Below, one piece after another: positions 18,174-42,605 of a stretch of 64,000 nt of DNA. This stretch comes from Gemmatimonadota bacterium (lineage in GTDB: Bacteria > ARS69): NCBI GenBank assembly GCA_030747075.1, contig JASLLL010000008.1:1-64000 (forward strand), in the 5' to 3' direction. Under the pieces are notes generated by a model. It did no database searches. It had not been told where the DNA came from and was given only the letters and a program-made list of their open reading frames with translations. Every line of letters starts with the position of its first letter. Position 1 is the first letter of the stretch. Made by a program: the position numbers and the translations under genes.

Positions 18174-18249
18174 GAGCCGGTAGCTCAGTTGGTAGAGCAC
18201 AGGACTGAAAATCCTGGTGTCCCCAGTTCAATTCTGGGCCGGCTCACCA
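18174..18249 (+). tRNA. tRNA-Phe (GAA)
   Basis: 76-nt cloverleaf: acceptor stem GAGCCGG/CCGGCTC, anticodon loop CTGAAAA giving anticodon GAA, T-loop TTCAATT, CCA encoded. It lies 125 bp after galE and 42 bp before tRNA-Thr, so the two tRNAs are probably one transcript. Confidence 0.96.
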
Positions 18250-18291
18250 CTCCGTCGTCCGCCGCAACGGCCGCGTGCAGGGTCTGGACAT

Positions 18292-18367
18292 GCTGGTGTA
18301 GCTCAGTTGGTAGAGCAACGCACTCGTAATGCGTAGGTCAGCGGTTCGACTCCGCTCACCAGCTCCA
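18292..18367 (+). tRNA. tRNA-Thr (CGT)
   Basis: 76-nt cloverleaf: acceptor stem GCTGGTG/CACCAGC, anticodon loop CTCGTAA giving anticodon CGT (reads ACG), T-loop TTCGACT, CCA encoded. It ends 50 bp before glmM. Confidence 0.96.
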
Positions 18368-18417: not shown

Positions 18418-19788
18418 TTGGACGGTCTCATCTTCTCCGTTTCGGGAGCGCGCGGCATTGTGGGGCGCGGACTGGACCCCGTGCGTCTGGCCGGGATGGC
18501 GGCACACTTCGGCGCATTCCTGGGGTCCGGGACCGTCGTCGTGGGCCGGGACTCGCGCGTGTCCGGAGAGATGTGCCTGCGAGCCGTCGCATCCGGGCTG
18601 ATGGCTGCCGGAAACGATGTCACGGATCTCGGGATCGTTTCCACCCCCACGGTGGAGGTGGCGGTCCGGGAACTGGGGGCGGTGGGCGGCGTCCAGATCT
18701 CCGCATCCCACAATCCTGCGGACTGGAACGCGCTCAAGTTCCTGTCGTCACGGGGGATCTTCCTGACTGCATCGGAAGGGGCGGATCTCGGGCGGCGCAT
18801 CGACTCAGGCGACCCTCCCTGGGCGGACTGGGACGGGATCGGGTCGTTCGAGTTTCGCGACGAGTTCACGGCTCGCCATGTGGACCGCATACTGGAGTCC
18901 CCGCTGGTGGATGTGGACGCCATTCGCGGCCGCGGGTTTCGCGTGGTGGTAGATTGCGTGCATGGTGCGGGAGGGGAGATCGCCGCACTCCTGCTTGCGC
19001 GGCTCGGCGTGGAGGCATCCTTCCTTTACGCGGAGCCGACCGGTCGGTTTCCCAGGAACCCCGAACCCGTTCCGGAGAACCTCACCGAACTGGCCGCTGC
19101 CGTGGCTGATCGCGGTGCGGATGCCGGCTTCGCGCTGGATCCGGATGCGGACCGCGTGGCTGCCGTAGACGAAACGGGAAGGCCGATCGGGGAAGAGGTC
19201 ACGCTGGCGGTGGTGGTGGACTCGGTGCTGCCGCGCGTCCGTGGAGATGTGGTCGTGAATGTGTCCACCACGATGGCCATCGAAGAGGTGGCGGCCCGGC
19301 ACGGGCGCGGCGTGCTGCGAACGCCTGTCGGGGAAGTCCATGTGACCGAGAAAATGCTGGAAACGGGGTCGCAGATCGGCGGAGAGGGAAACGGCGGTGT
19401 CATCGCCCCTTCCGTCAATCCCGGCCGCGACGGCTTGCTGGGGATTGCGCTCCTTCTGGACGCGCTGACCCGGGCGGGCGCGCCACTTTCCGCGCTTGCC
19501 GGGAGGATTCCCGCCACGGTGATGAAGAAGGCGAAGATTGATGCCGATGGGGTGGATGTGGATCAGGCGCTCTCGGCTCTTGGTCGGGCATTCCCGGACG
19601 CCCGGACAGACACGACGGACGGCCTGAAGCTCGTTTTCGAGGACGAATGGGTGCATTTGCGGAAATCGAACACGGAACCCATTCTCCGGCTTCTTGCCGA
19701 GGCTCGCACGGAAGATCTTGTGGAGGCGCTGGTTCGCCGGACGCGGGAGATTGTGGAAGGAGTGCGGCCGTCCTCTTCGGGGTCGTAG
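18418..19788 (+). CDS. glmM: Phosphoglucosamine / phosphohexo-mutase
   Basis: A 456-aa alpha-D-phosphohexomutase. The phosphoserine loop is I-S-A-S-H-N-P (about residues 98-104), the Mg-binding loop is D-P-D-A-D-R, the sugar-binding region is G-E-G-N-G-G, and the phosphate-binding loop near the end is K-S-N-T-E-P. The sequence style (S-G-A-R-G-I at the N-terminus, NPADWN after the Ser) is like phosphoglucosamine mutases of the archaeal/FCB type, and glmS follows 41 bp downstream. Conversion of glucosamine-6-P to glucosamine-1-P for UDP-GlcNAc is therefore the best call. Phosphomannomutase activity is the alternative. The start is TTG 18418, with GGAGG 5 nt upstream. Confidence 0.85.
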   Translation: MDGLIFSVSGARGIVGRGLDPVRLAGMAAHFGAFLGSGTVVVGRDSRVSGEMCLRAVASGLMAAGNDVTDLGIVSTPTVEVAVRELGAVGGVQISASHNPADWNALKFLSSRGIFLTASEGADLGRRIDSGDPPWADWDGIGSFEFRDEFTARHVDRILESPLVDVDAIRGRGFRVVVDCVHGAGGEIAALLLARLGVEASFLYAEPTGRFPRNPEPVPENLTELAAAVADRGADAGFALDPDADRVAAVDETGRPIGEEVTLAVVVDSVLPRVRGDVVVNVSTTMAIEEVAARHGRGVLRTPVGEVHVTEKMLETGSQIGGEGNGGVIAPSVNPGRDGLLGIALLLDALTRAGAPLSALAGRIPATVMKKAKIDADGVDVDQALSALGRAFPDARTDTTDGLKLVFEDEWVHLRKSNTEPILRLLAEARTEDLVEALVRRTREIVEGVRPSSSGS

Positions 19789-19829: not shown

Positions 19830-21662
19830 ATGTGTGGAATCGTAGGATACATTGGATCCAACTCACCGCTTCCCGTCCTGCTGGAAGGGCTCAAGCGGCT
19901 GGAGTATCGCGGATACGACTCCGCCGGAATCAGTATTCTCAACGGCAGCGGCATCACCACGCGCAAGACGGCCGGGAAGATCGTAAACTTGGAGAAGCTG
20001 ATCGCCGGGAACGGCGCGGATCTCTCCGGCACGGTCGGCATCGGGCACACGCGCTGGGCCACGCATGGCGCCCCCACCACTCGCAACGCTCACCCGCATA
20101 CCGGCGCATCCGGCACGATCGCGGTGGTCCACAACGGGATCATCGAGAACTGGGAGACGCTGAAACGCCAACTGGTGGAAGCGGGCCATGTCTTTGAGAC
20201 GGAGACGGACACGGAAGTTCTGACACAACTCGTGGCGCACTACTTCGACGGAGACCTGGAAGAGGCCGTTCGCCGGGCGCTGAAGCGTGTCGAAGGAACT
20301 TACGGGATTGCGGTCGTCAGTTCAGAGGATCCGGACAGGATCATTGCCGCGCGGAATGGAAGTCCCCTGGTGCTGGGCATCGGCGAGAAGGAGAACTTCG
20401 TCGCGTCGGATGTGGCGGCCATTCTTCATCACACTCGGCAGGTGATCTACCTGGACGATCACGAAATGGCGGTTGTGGAGCGGGACACCTTTGCCACAAC
20501 AAGCCTCGACCGCGTCTCCGTGCAGAAGGAGATTGAGGAGATCGCGTGGGACTTGAGCGCGATCGAAAAGGGCGGCTATCCGCACTTCATGCTGAAGGAG
20601 ATCTTCGAACAGCCGGAGACTGTGCGGAATGCCATGCGCGGGCGGTTCGACGAACCCACAGTGAGTGCGCACCTCGGCGGACTCAACATGAGCATCGAGG
20701 AGATGCGTGATGTTGAGCGCATCATCATTACCGCGTGCGGGACCTCGTGGCACGCGGGGCTCATTGGCGAGTACATGATGGAGGAGATGGCACGAATCCC
20801 GGTCGAGGTGGAGTACGCATCGGAGTTCCGCTACCGGAATCCCATCATCACGCCGAACACGGTCTCCGTGGCCATCAGCCAGTCCGGAGAGACCATGGAT
20901 ACTCTCTGGGCCATGCGCGAAGCCAAGATGAAGGGTGCAAACGCACTCGGGATCTGCAATGTCGTCGGGTCAACCATCGCCCGGGAGTCTGACGGCGGCG
21001 TGTACATTCACGCGGGTCCGGAGATCGGCGTGGCCAGCACAAAGGCATTTACGGCGCAGATTACGGTGCTGGCGCTGATGGCGCTGGCGTTTGCCCGCCT
21101 GCGCGGGCTGGACCGCGAGGTGGGGCGTCGCTTCATCTCGGAGATGCAGCTCCTGCCGGAACGGATTCAGGGAATCCTGGAGAAGAACGACGAGATTCTC
21201 AAGATCGCGGAAGAATACGCCGGGCACGACAACTTCCTCTACCTCGGGCGCGGCTACAACTTCCCCGTGGCGCTGGAGGGTGCGCTCAAACTGAAGGAGA
21301 TCAGCTACATTCACGCGGAGGGTTATCCGGCGGCCGAGATGAAGCACGGCCCGATCGCGCTGATCGACAAGAACATGCCGGTGGTCTTTATCGCACCGCG
21401 TGACCGCGCTTACGAGAAGGTCATCGGGAACATCGAAGAGGTTCGTGCGCGGAGCGGCCGGGTGATCGCCATCGCGACGGAAGGGGAGACGGAGATCACG
21501 CGAAAGGCGGATCACACCATTCTGATCCCCGAGACGATTCCCTGCCTCATGCCCATTCTGTCGGTCATCCCGCTTCAGCTTCTTGCCTACCATGTGGCCG
21601 TCCTCAGGGCGTGCGATGTCGACCAACCCCGCAACCTCGCCAAGAGCGTGACCGTAGAGTAG
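19830..21662 (+). CDS. glmS: Glutamine-fructose-6-phosphate aminotransferase (isomerizing)
   Basis: A 610-aa protein, the standard GlmS length. After Met removal the N-terminal Cys (M-C-G-I-V-G-Y) is the glutaminase nucleophile. W-A-T-H-G and H-N-G-I-I-E-N follow. Two SIS domains (about 290-600) carry A-C-G-T-S-W-H-A-G and S-Q-S-G-E-T-M-D-T, and the end is L-A-K-S-V-T-V-E. It makes glucosamine-6-phosphate from fructose-6-phosphate and glutamine, the entry to UDP-GlcNAc, peptidoglycan and lipid A. It follows glmM by 41 bp, leaving no room for a glmS ribozyme. Confidence 0.97.
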   Translation: MCGIVGYIGSNSPLPVLLEGLKRLEYRGYDSAGISILNGSGITTRKTAGKIVNLEKLIAGNGADLSGTVGIGHTRWATHGAPTTRNAHPHTGASGTIAVVHNGIIENWETLKRQLVEAGHVFETETDTEVLTQLVAHYFDGDLEEAVRRALKRVEGTYGIAVVSSEDPDRIIAARNGSPLVLGIGEKENFVASDVAAILHHTRQVIYLDDHEMAVVERDTFATTSLDRVSVQKEIEEIAWDLSAIEKGGYPHFMLKEIFEQPETVRNAMRGRFDEPTVSAHLGGLNMSIEEMRDVERIIITACGTSWHAGLIGEYMMEEMARIPVEVEYASEFRYRNPIITPNTVSVAISQSGETMDTLWAMREAKMKGANALGICNVVGSTIARESDGGVYIHAGPEIGVASTKAFTAQITVLALMALAFARLRGLDREVGRRFISEMQLLPERIQGILEKNDEILKIAEEYAGHDNFLYLGRGYNFPVALEGALKLKEISYIHAEGYPAAEMKHGPIALIDKNMPVVFIAPRDRAYEKVIGNIEEVRARSGRVIAIATEGETEITRKADHTILIPETIPCLMPILSVIPLQLLAYHVAVLRACDVDQPRNLAKSVTVE

Positions 21663-21733: not shown

Positions 21734-22117
21734 ATGGACCGACGCATTGTCTCAACGGAATCCGCGCCGTCCGCTATCGGCCCCTACAGCCAGGCGGTCT
21801 GTGCGGGCGGGTTCGTGTACACCGCCGGGCAGATCGCGCTGGATCCGGAGTCGGGCGTGCTGGTGGAAGGCGGGATGGAGGCGCAGACCGAACGCGTGAT
21901 CCAGAATCTGCGGGCCGTGCTGAAAGCGGCGGGGAGTTCGCTGGACCGTGTCGTGAAGACCACGGTCTATCTGAAGGACATGGCCGATTTCCCGGCGATG
22001 AACGAAGTGTACGGGCGGCATTTTTCCACCGGACGACCCGCGCGCGCGACCGTCGCGGTCGCGGGGCTTCCGATGGGGGTTGCGGTGGAAATCGACGCCG
22101 TAGCCACCGTGGATTGA
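21734..22117 (+). CDS. ridA: RidA-family reactive-intermediate deaminase
   Basis: A 127-aa protein of the YjgF/YER057c/UK114 family. It has the characteristic A-I-G-P-Y-S-Q-A near the N-terminus, G-Q-I-A-L-D-P, the conserved active-site Arg in R-A-T-V-A-V, and E-I-D-A-V-A at the end. Family members hydrolyse reactive enamine/imine intermediates released by PLP enzymes, to keto acid and ammonia. ATG 21734 lies 71 bp after glmS; upstream in-frame codons have no family resemblance. It ends 26 bp before the tRNA-Sec gene. Confidence 0.92.
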   Translation: MDRRIVSTESAPSAIGPYSQAVCAGGFVYTAGQIALDPESGVLVEGGMEAQTERVIQNLRAVLKAAGSSLDRVVKTTVYLKDMADFPAMNEVYGRHFSTGRPARATVAVAGLPMGVAVEIDAVATVD

Positions 22118-22143: not shown

Positions 22144-22241
22144 GGGAATGGGTAGGTTCTGGTGAACCTCGAGGACTTCAAATCCTTCCGTCGGGTGCTA
22201 AAACCATCCGAGGTGGGTTCGATTCCCACGCATTCCCGCCA
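22144..22241 (+). tRNA. selC: tRNA-Sec (TCA), selenocysteine tRNA
   Basis: A 98-nt tRNA with anticodon loop CTTCAAA, anticodon TCA, which reads UGA. Features of bacterial tRNA-Sec: an extended D stem (AGGTTC/GAACCT), a long variable arm (paired TCGG..TG / C..CCGA, 22191-22211), T stem GTGGG/CCCAC with TTCGATT loop, discriminator G as in E. coli selC, and encoded CCA (22239-22241). The acceptor 5' strand GGGAATG pairs with CATTCCC; the eighth pair expected in the 8-bp Sec acceptor would be G-G. It implies that the organism decodes UGA as selenocysteine, and a target gene is present at 42003-42605. Confidence 0.93.
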
Positions 22242-22263: not shown

Positions 22264-22728
22264 ATGGCCGTTGCGGCATGGGTGCTGAGCATGGCGGCAC
22301 TCTCTTCCGCCGCGGAGGTCGTGGAACCGCCGAGCCCCTTCGCCCGCGCAGTGCGCAGCGCGGTGGTGCCCGCATGGGGGCAGATGACGAATGACCGGCC
22401 CGTCAAGGCATCCGTGATCTTTGCGGTGCAGGCGTATCTGTACACCGGGATTCTGGTGGAATCCCGCCGCGCGACGGACTTTCAGTCTCGCGCGGTGAAC
22501 GCCGCGGACGCCGGGACGCAAGCGTGGCTGGAGGATCGCGCGCAGGAGCATTTCAGCCGACGGAGGAACCTGGTCTTCTGGTCGATTCTGGGAGCCTTCT
22601 ACAGCGCGGTGGACGCATACATTGACGCTCACCTCGGAGACTTTGAGGAGGATCTGGAGGAGAGTCGCACATTGTTCGCGGAAGTGGACCCCCACGAGGG
22701 AACCATTGCGGTGGGGATCGCGTTTTAG
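22264..22728 (+). CDS. Small exported/membrane protein, DUF5683-like
   Basis: A 154-aa protein starting at ATG 22264, 22 bp after selC. The open frame extends back through the tRNA gene but only this Met begins a signal-peptide-like sequence (M-A-V-A-A-W-V-L-S-M, ending S-S-A-A-E). Then comes S-P-F-A-R-A-V-R-S-A-V-V-P-A-W-G-Q, matching the S-x-x-x-P-G-x-G-Q pattern of DUF5683 proteins common in Bacteroidetes-type genomes. It is followed by two hydrophobic helices (about 45-65 and 100-120) and an acidic C-terminus with D-A-Y-I-D-A-H-L. Function unknown. It lies upstream of signal peptidase I. Confidence 0.7.
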   Translation: MAVAAWVLSMAALSSAAEVVEPPSPFARAVRSAVVPAWGQMTNDRPVKASVIFAVQAYLYTGILVESRRATDFQSRAVNAADAGTQAWLEDRAQEHFSRRRNLVFWSILGAFYSAVDAYIDAHLGDFEEDLEESRTLFAEVDPHEGTIAVGIAF

Positions 22729-22821: not shown

Positions 22822-23655
22822 ATGGCCGGACACAAGAACAGGGGGAAGCGCGGTCGGGGTTCCGCTTCCGGGAGTCCCCCCAACCGTCACTGGGAGAATG
22901 GTAAGACCATCTTCTGGGCGCTGCTCATTGCGCTCTTCATCCGCAGTTTCTTCTTCCAGGCGTTTCGCATCCCGAGCGGTTCGATGGAGGACACGCTCCT
23001 GGTGGGTGATTTCCTGCTCGTGGACAAACTGACCTACGGCGCGAAGATTCCCTTTACGGAGATTCGCCTGCCGGGCTTCCGCGATCCGAAGCGCGGGGAC
23101 ATCATCGTCTTCAAGGCGCCGGTGTCGAACAAGGACTACATCAAGCGGTGCGTCGCGGTCGCCGGGGAGACACTGGAACTGCGCGACGATGTTCTCCACA
23201 TCGAAGATGAACCCCTGCACGAACCCTACATAGCGCTGAAGCCTTCGCTGCACTCGGACCCGAACTTCGGGCCGGTGACGGTTCCGAATGACGCCATCTT
23301 CATGATGGGCGACAACCGTCACAACAGCGCGGACAGTCGCTACTTCGGGTTTCTGGACAAGAACCGCGTCGTGGGCCGTGCGTTCGTGTTGTACTGGTCA
23401 TGGAGTGCATCGGACCCTCCGGCCCTCATCGGCGGCATCCGGAACAAAGTGCTCCGGACCGTGCTTTCGCTGCCGTTTGGCAAGCCGCGCATCACTCGGA
23501 TCGGGGACTGGATCGCGACGGACTATTCGGAGATCTACCACTCGACGGGCGTGTCTCCGGCTGACGAAGTGGCGGAGGTCGCGTCTCCGGCTGACGAAGC
23601 GTCGGCGGGGGTGTCTCCGGCTGACGAAGCGTCGGAGGTTGCGGGCGAGTCGTGA
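22822..23655 (+). CDS. lepB: Signal peptidase I
   Basis: A 277-aa type I leader peptidase starting at ATG 22822, chosen for its strong GGGGGAGG site (an ATG at 22780 is the alternative). One transmembrane helix (about 30-47) precedes the catalytic Ser in P-S-G-S-M. The general-base Lys is in Y-I-K-R-C-V-A, and [11 protein letters not shown] is the conserved box E. It cleaves Sec and Tat signal peptides at the outer face of the inner membrane. The C-terminal 30 residues are three decapeptide repeats encoded by an exact-period 30-bp tandem array, absent from typical SPase I. The stop overlaps the lepA start. Confidence 0.93.
23551..23640 (+). repeat. Three tandem 30-bp repeats inside the 3' end of lepB
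   Basis: Units 23551-23580, 23581-23610 and 23611-23640 share the core TCTCCGGCTGACGAAG and differ at a few positions. They encode a ten-residue S-P-A-D-E-based unit three times, in frame, so copy-number changes would keep lepB open. The array ends 15 bp before the lepA start. Confidence 0.9.
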
Positions 23656-25457
23656 TGCTTGATCGATTGAAGATCCGGAACTTCTGCATCATCGCGCACA
23701 TTGATCACGGCAAGTCGACGCTTGCCGATCGACTCCTTGCGCTGACGCACACGCTGTCCGAGGCGGAGGCCCAGGGGCAGGTTCTCGACGATATGGACCT
23801 GGAGAAGGAACGCGGGATCACGATCAAAGCTCACGCGGTTCGCATGACCCATCCCGGACCCGACGGCCACGAGTATGTCCTCAACCTCATCGACACTCCC
23901 GGGCATGTGGACTTCTCGTATGAGGTGTCGCGGAGCCTGGCGGCCTGCGAGGGAGCGGTTCTTGTGGTGGACGCCAGTCAGGGCGTGGAGGCGCAGACCA
24001 TCTCGAACCTGCATCTGGCGATTGCGGGAGATCTCACCATCATTCCGGTGCTGAACAAGATTGACATGTCCGGCGCGGATCCGGAACGCGCGGCCGCGCA
24101 GGTGCTGGACCTCCTGGGTGGAGACCCGGGGGATGTCCTTCGCGTGAGCGCCAGGGACGGTCTGGGCGTGGACGCATTGATTCCCGAGATCATCAAGAGG
24201 ATCCCACCCCCGTCGGGAGAGACGAACGCTCCGCTTCGTGCGCTCATCTTCGACTCGGCCTTCGACCAGTATCGCGGTGCGGTGGCCTATGTTCGCGTTG
24301 TGGACGGGAAGCTGCGCGCTGGCATGACGATTCGCTTTCTCTCGAACGCCCGCGAGTATCTCGTCACGGAAGTGGGGACGCTGCGTCTCGGAATGGTCCC
24401 GTGCGAGACGCTGGGTGTGGGGGATGTGGGCTATGTCATTGCGGGTGTGAAGAACATCGGGCACACGAAGGTGGGAGACACGATCACCGACACGGCGAAT
24501 CCCGCGTCTGAGTCGTTGCCGGGCTATGCCGAGGCGAAGTCGATGGTGTTCTCCGGCTTCTACCCGATTGACACGGAGGACTACGAAGATCTCCGTGACG
24601 CGCTGGACCGCCTGCGCCTGAACGATGCGTCGCTCCACTATGAACCGGAGACATCCGTTGCGCTGGGGTTCGGGTTTCGCTGCGGGTTCCTGGGATTGCT
24701 GCACCGGGAGATTGTGCAGGAACGCCTGGAGCGCGAGTTCAATCTCGGACTCATCGGTACGGTTCCGACGGTTCCCTATCGCGTGTACGGGAAAGACGGG
24801 ACGATGGTGGAGATCGAGAACCCAAACGATCTTCCAGACCCCGCAGACATCGACCGAATCGAAGAACCGATGGTTCGTGCCGAGATTGTCGTGCCGACGG
24901 ATTACATCGGGAACATGATGAAGCTCGGACAGGAGCGACGCGGCACCCATGGCGGGATGGAGTACATCGACCCGACGCGTGTGGTGATCCACTTCGAGTT
25001 TCCGCTTGCGGAGATCATCTTCGACTTCTACGACAAGCTGAAGTCGATCAGCCGCGGATATGCATCCTTCGACTACGAGTTTTCGGACTACCAGGTCTCT
25101 CCAATGGTCAAGCTGGACATCCTGCTGAACGGGGAACCGGTGGACGCGTTGTCGATTATCGTGCACCGGGACAAGGCTTACGAGTGGGGGAAGAGCCTCG
25201 TCGAGAAACTGAAGGAAGTCATCCCTCGGCACCAGTTCCAGGTGGCGGTGCAGGCGGCGGTGGGCTCGAAGATCATCGCACGGGAGACCCTGCGCGCGCT
25301 TCGCAAGAATGTGACCGCGAAGTGTTATGGCGGGGACATTACCCGGAAGCGGAAACTCCTGGAGCGGCAGAAGGAAGGGAAGAAGCGGATGAAGCAGGTG
25401 GGCACCGTCCGCGTTCCGCAGGAAGCATTTCTCTCGGTGCTGAAGATCGACCGGTAG
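23655..25457 (+). CDS. lepA: Elongation factor 4 (LepA), ribosomal back-translocase GTPase
   Basis: A 600-aa translational GTPase of the usual LepA length. GTPase motifs: A-H-I-D-H-G-K-S-T (G1), R-G-I-T-I-K (G2), D-T-P-G-H-V-D (G3), N-K-I-D (G4). The LepA-specific C-terminal domain is present ([15 protein letters not shown]). The best start is ATG 23655, sharing a base with the lepB TGA; GTG 23652 would add one residue. lepB-lepA pairing is widely conserved and this overlap supports translational coupling. LepA acts on stalled ribosomes and in initiation/biogenesis. Confidence 0.97.
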
Positions 25458-42002: not shown

Positions 42003-42605
42003 ATGCCCTGGATCGCCCAGGTGGAGGATGACGAAGCGGCCGGTCTTCTGAAGAAGGAGTTCGACGACGCACGGCGCCGTTCCGGGCGCGTCTGGAACAT
42101 CGTCCGGATCATGAGCGCGAACCCCCGCGTGCTCTCCGCCAGCATTCGCCACTACGCGGCGATCATGCTCGGCTCGTCGCCGCTCTCGCGCGTCCGAAGG
42201 GAGATGCTCGCCACGGTGGTCGCGAGCGAAGTGGGCTGCCGGTACTGAACCCGCGCCCATGCACACGACCTCCGGGCAGAGGTCGCGAAGGAGGGAGTGG
42301 CGGAAGGCGAGGCGGAGCGACTTGCGCACGCGGTAGCGCGCGACTGGCGCGCGGCACCGCTTTCGGAGGCCGACCGGGCGCTGTGCGCTCATGCGGCGAA
42401 GCTCACGCACCACATGGCGGCGACGGGGCCCGAAGACCTTGACGCGCTGCGAGATGCCGGGTTCGACGATGTCGCCATCCACGACGCCACCCAGGTGATC
42501 GCGTACTTTCACTACATCACCCGGATCGCGGAGTCGCTGGGTGTGGAGCCGGAGAGCGAGATCCCCGCCTACGGAGAAACCACCGACACGCGTGACTCTC
42601 CGTGA
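42003..42605 (+). CDS. AhpD-like peroxidase-related selenoprotein (UGA = Sec at codon 82)
   Basis: One 201-codon frame runs from ATG 42003 to TGA 42603-42605 and is broken only by TGA at 42246-42248. Both halves match AhpD-like peroxidase-related proteins of the carboxymuconolactone decarboxylase superfamily. The first part has P-W-I-x-x-V, G-R-V-W-N-I and S-P-L-S-R-V-R-R-E-M-L-A-T-V-V-A. The second has A-L-C-A-H-A-A-K-L-T and I-H-D-A-T-Q-V-I-A-Y-F. The UGA replaces the second Cys of the family's C-x-x-C, giving C79-R-Y-U82 followed by His86 at the conserved spacing. Family members reduce peroxides through this redox pair. A SECIS-like hairpin follows the UGA, and selC is at 22144. The alternative, two decayed ORFs, is unlikely since both halves are fully conserved in style. 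Confidence 0.88.
42266..42285 (+). promoter_or_regulatory. Candidate bacterial SECIS element in the selenoprotein mRNA
   Basis: A perfect 7-bp stem CGACCTC (42266-42272) / GAGGTCG (42279-42285) with loop CGGGCA. The loop begins 24 nt after the UGA, inside the 16-37-nt window known for bacterial SECIS elements, and contains the G-rich apex expected for SelB recognition. Confidence 0.75.

Follow-up and report, generated by a model that had tools for sequence, protein, structure and literature searches.

Published surveys describe bacterial tRNA-Sec as adopting an 8/5 fold, with 7/5 exceptions; in these 12-bp forms, only 7 residues lie between the T stem and G73 (PMC5330540). The selC*-type tRNA-Cys, in turn, carry U73 and usually a GCA anticodon (PMC7609411). 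With respect to gene arrangement, selC is nested in or overlaps selB in Alphaproteobacteria and others (PMC8124441), and AhpD-like proteins of TIGR01926 with a CxxU motif are a listed prokaryotic selenoprotein family (PMC13188914). A statement on the eighth acceptor pair itself was not found in the published tRNA-Sec surveys by literature search, and neither a paper linking selC with ridA nor a description of selenoproteins in Krumholzibacteriota was found in the open-licence literature.

In this work, we analysed a stretch of 64,000 nucleotides (hereafter, the window), which belongs to contig 8 of a Gemmatimonadota bacterium draft genome (2.67 Mb, 61 contigs, completeness estimate 100%). Our results indicate that the selC found in it is a genuine, ordinary gene for the selenocysteine-inserting tRNA, and that only its conserved neighbourhood is mildly novel. 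We estimate a probability of about 0.95 that this selC is functional, being excised from a polycistronic transcript and serving UGA decoding by SerRS, SelA, SelD and SelB. The gene and its neighbours in the window are the following:

18418..19788, + strand: glmM-like gene (open reading frame; named by recognition and tblastn in relatives, rather than by family scan)
19830..21662, + strand: glmS (open reading frame; named by recognition rather than by family scan; used for the GlmS tree)
21734..22117, + strand: ridA (RidA/YjgF family; PF01042, E 1.5e-43; same-strand neighbour in relatives; ends 26 nt before selC)
22144..22241, + strand: selC, tRNA-Sec (UCA anticodon, encoded GCCA 3' end, G73; ARAGORN, Rfam RF01852, and 13-sequence alignment with relatives)
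22264..22728, + strand: DUF5683 gene (PF18935, E 5.8e-11; likely start ATG 22264, 22 nt after selC)
22822..23655, + strand: lepB, signal peptidase (open reading frame; present in relatives; named by recognition rather than by family scan)
23652..25457, + strand: lepA (open reading frame; named by recognition rather than by family scan)

Genes for tRNA-Phe and tRNA-Thr (18174-18367) are located directly upstream of glmM, and several SPADEA-type repeat copies are found in the C-terminal part of the LepB frame (23555-23655).

Identity and anatomy of selC

ARAGORN reported tRNA-SeC(tca) at exactly 22144-22241 on the + strand, and the Rfam model RF01852 (gathering cut-off 47 bits) matched the gene with 73.0 bits (E 4.7e-13) over 22144-22237, covering model positions 1-91 of 91. 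The original prediction of a complete tRNA-Sec with a UCA anticodon and a long variable arm is thereby confirmed. The acceptor strands, GGGAATGG and GCATTCCC, form 7 standard pairs with G8·G87 as the eighth, and the T stem has 5 pairs (GTGGG/CCCAC), that is, a length of 8+5 for both stems when the purine-purine eighth step is included. Covariance model alignment showed a D stem of 6 bp with a 4-nt loop (AGGTTC-TGGT-GAACCT), as well as the long variable arm; the 3' end (...CATTCCC-G-CCA) contains the discriminator G73 and an encoded CCA. The cloverleaf of selC was not recovered by free folding, and covariance scoring was used instead. A second RF01852 match in the genome (contig 3, 50.8 bits), considered as another selC, turned out to be a tRNA-Leu(taa); thus, selC is single-copy, the only one found in the genome.

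The G·G eighth pair had been read correctly in the original prediction as slightly off the canon, but it carries little weight, since a mismatch at this step is common in bacterial selC. In a sample of approximately 50 selC genes taken from varied genomes, about half have a standard eighth pair and about half a non-Watson-Crick one; G·A is the most frequent single state (19 rows, including one duplicate), and G·G occurs in 3 genes besides that of the window. A few rows were miscounted due to an ARAGORN 5' end placed one base off, which leaves this picture unchanged. The pair is G·A in all four same-family relatives, A87 having changed to G in the window lineage, and therefore G·G represents a slight shift within a widespread state. 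In the 13-sequence alignment, the selC sequence is nearly invariant across relatives, with A87G and the variable arm as exceptions. The frequency of a purine-purine eighth step in bacterial tRNA-Sec bears on how the helix is measured by SelA, SelB and EF-Tu.

Selenocysteine machinery and UGA-containing genes

Within the window, no match above cut-off was obtained for selA, selB or selD, the sole match being LepA, below the SelB cut-off. The absence of these genes near selC had been pointed out originally and holds for the window; the oddness attributed to it does not, as all three were found on other contigs of the genome by profile search. These correspond to selA on contig 13 (535 bits), selB on contig 18 (357 bits, from two stretches of a single frame), and selD on contig 4 (62873-63799; 364 bits, one TGA), each above its curated cut-off and at a distance of over 10 kb from the nearest contig end, which indicates that the four sel genes are truly dispersed and not split by assembly. 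An unlinked selC is not unusual, that of E. coli being likewise unlinked. A false anomaly is thus removed: the selC without nearby sel genes sits in a genome with the remaining machinery. Furthermore, tRNA 2-selenouridine synthase (TIGR03167) had no match in the genome search, and hence there is no sign of SelD serving the selenouridine trait.

A genome-wide search for formate dehydrogenase or other UGA-containing genes, as proposed with the original prediction, yielded at least three selenoprotein genes, namely selD and the following two:

contig 4, 55473-55685: SelW-like selenoprotein gene (one TGA, motif CQMU, reading MKVSILFCQMU...)
window, 42003..42605, + strand: AhpD-like selenoprotein gene (in-frame TGA 42246-42248, Sec82, motif CRYU; PF02627 match with 1 TGA)

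The single in-frame TGA of selD lies in the motif CAG-U-ASK, and a UGA at this site recurs in more than 12 SelD genes adjoining other selC genes; the codon is followed by a 3' hairpin (z -3.5 versus shuffles), and a GGTC is spaced from it as in several SelD relatives. The SelW-like gene and selD are approximately 7 kb apart on contig 4. The AhpD-like protein scored 120.7 bits against TIGR01926 (cut-off 81.8), and its CRYU codon is TGA in 12 of 13 homologues and TGT (Cys) in the other one. The hairpin after this UGA does not exceed shuffles in strength (z -0.3), its stem recurring in one homologue (G004), and the selenoprotein case for this gene therefore rests on conservation; it is likely a user of the window selC. 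A transporter-like membrane protein gene is located directly upstream of it. No match in the genome reached the cut-off for formate dehydrogenase, the candidates being weak and confined to one large protein without UGA; UGA forms of the AhpC/TSA and HesB families were also rejected, as their matches contain no stop. A scan of 8 further window frames interrupted by a TGA gave no case of one Pfam domain spanning that codon. Gene calls terminating the SelD, SelW-like and AhpD-like proteins at UGA would be wrong, and automatic annotation would split or truncate the AhpD-like gene at its TGA.

The G·G eighth pair and the absence of sel protein genes nearby might also be expected of a tRNA-Ser-like pseudogene, or of a decayed selC in a genome that had lost Sec decoding. 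Nevertheless, covariance scoring gave a full-length match to the Sec model (73 bits versus the cut-off of 47) instead of a serine tRNA-like pseudogene, selC is nearly invariant in relatives apart from the changes described above, and the genome, far from lacking the machinery, holds selA, selB and selD above curated cut-offs together with conserved UGA genes. The pseudogene reading is refuted by these genes, and we consider its probability negligible. The source bacterium very likely retains intact Sec decoding.

A conserved neighbourhood crossed by an open frame

As originally described, selC lies between ridA and a DUF5683-like gene, with PF01042 matching upstream and PF18935 downstream; the location is no stray insertion but a neighbourhood conserved in related lineages. 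In genomes of the same family, the order glmM-glmS-ridA-selC-DUF5683-lepB-lepA is kept, except for ridA being undetected in one genome and for early contig ends, with identities of 68-73% for the glmM-like, 75-79% for the glmS and 76-77% for the lepA neighbours. MAGs that carry the labels Krumholzibacteriota, Eisenbacteria, Latescibacterota and Gemmatimonadota also show the arrangement glmM-glmS-ridA-selC-DUF5683-lepB/lepA. In a GlmS tree, the window groups with its family, near these lineages; depositor labels are mixed in this tree, and the phylum names are thus approximate.

A search of a named genome collection using part of the selC sequence as a pattern gave a sample of at least 115 tRNA-Sec loci. 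Among the matches listed, 45 of 115 had two or more same-strand housekeeping partners; among them were 14/14 loci labelled Krumholzibacteriota, 6/6 Eisenbacteria, 4/6 Gemmatimonadota and 4/9 Latescibacterota, and none of those labelled Bacillota groups. In these 45 partner-rich loci, again among the matches listed, the gene detected immediately before selC was ridA in 32 and selD in 8. The order ridA-selD-selC was observed in two loci, and several Eisenbacteria displayed glmS-selD-selC, with a ThiI-like/NFACT-R gene next in the one locus inspected. In an Eisenbacteria MAG locus (L128, 5079-6047), the protein encoded after selD-selC is ThiI-like with an NFACT-R_2 domain. The position of selD directly upstream of selC in some relatives means that a sel gene does join the neighbourhood elsewhere. 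This neighbourhood constitutes a practical landmark for locating selC in Krumholzibacteriota, Eisenbacteria and allies.

The recurrence of the order across uncultured phyla, sometimes with selD, and in particular its presence in all Krumholzibacteriota and Eisenbacteria loci listed, could suggest that the glmS-ridA-lepB/lepA position is functionally selected beyond inherited gene order, for instance by tying tRNA-Sec dose to growth via a shared transcript. This would be a further claim, compatible with a functional selC, and we regard it as unlikely: vertically inherited gene order explains the pattern equally well, housekeeping operons break up slowly, the gene content from selC to lepB varies, and the locus sample was picked by a tRNA sequence pattern.

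For the functional selC favoured here, the spacers of 26 nt (ridA side) and 22 nt (DUF5683 side) offer little space for an individual promoter. A scan for sigma-70 type sites revealed no promoter-like site on the + strand between 17800 and 26000, its matches being no more than expected by chance, which, together with the short gaps, fits co-transcription. From the observed gene, anatomy, machinery, UGA genes and neighbourhood, we infer the steps of co-transcription, processing, charging and decoding: the tRNA-Sec would most likely be cut from a polycistronic glmM-glmS-ridA-selC-DUF5683-lepB-lepA transcript and charged with serine by SerRS; SelA would convert this Ser-tRNA to Sec-tRNA with selenophosphate supplied by SelD, and SelB would then deliver it to UGA codons with a 3' SECIS hairpin, the targets being at least those of selD, the SelW-like gene and the AhpD-like gene of the window. 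Three tRNAs may share one transcript, namely tRNA-Phe, tRNA-Thr and selC in its operon.

The open frame reported to run straight through the tRNA into the next gene does reach the DUF5683 stop at 22728, but it begins inside selC, after an in-frame TAG (22153-22155) on the + strand, and thus includes 86 of the tRNA's 98 bases rather than all of them. The accompanying warning about automatic start calls is borne out, as a start placed at GTG 22162 would give an ORF that incorporates the tRNA; a call fusing selC to DUF5683 in this manner would be wrong. In 36 of the 45 syntenic loci among the matches listed, some frame of at least 120 codons leads out of the tRNA, as high G+C and short spacers would lead one to expect. 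The exit frame, the opening point and the downstream gene (diacylglycerol kinase family, ThiI-like or DUF5683) all vary across these 45 loci, and this variation argues against translation of DUF5683 from inside selC, a coupling that would resemble the selB-selC overlap of Alphaproteobacteria. Such translation might be proposed from the 188 codons over which the frame is open and from the known cases of selC nested in or overlapping selB (PMC8124441, PMC13188914); however, a good ATG is available 22 nt past the tRNA, and the additional peptide is merely translated tRNA (EVGSIPTHSR), all of which makes it very improbable. Judged from sequence, the frame is an annotation hazard and not biology.

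Comparison with described systems

The window selC shares with bacterial tRNA-Sec (RF01852) and E. coli selC the UCA anticodon, the 6-bp D stem with its 4-nt loop, the long variable arm, G73 and the encoded CCA. Its acceptor plus T helix likewise has a length of 13 steps, with 7 standard acceptor pairs plus a purine-purine step, and it differs from them at the eighth acceptor step, where G·G takes the place of a Watson-Crick pair. Its 8 residues from the T stem to G73 exclude a 12-bp (7/5) tRNA-Sec, and G73 together with UCA excludes a selC*-type tRNA-Cys. Similarly, the AhpD-like gene agrees with the CxxU selenoproteins of TIGR01926 (PMC13188914) in scoring above cut-off and carrying CRYU, and nothing was found marking it as a new family. 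Finally, as in the selB-overlapping selC genes (PMC8124441), the window selC is tightly spaced among protein genes and crossed by an open frame; in contrast to them, its neighbours are ridA and DUF5683 rather than selB, and the frame is unconserved.
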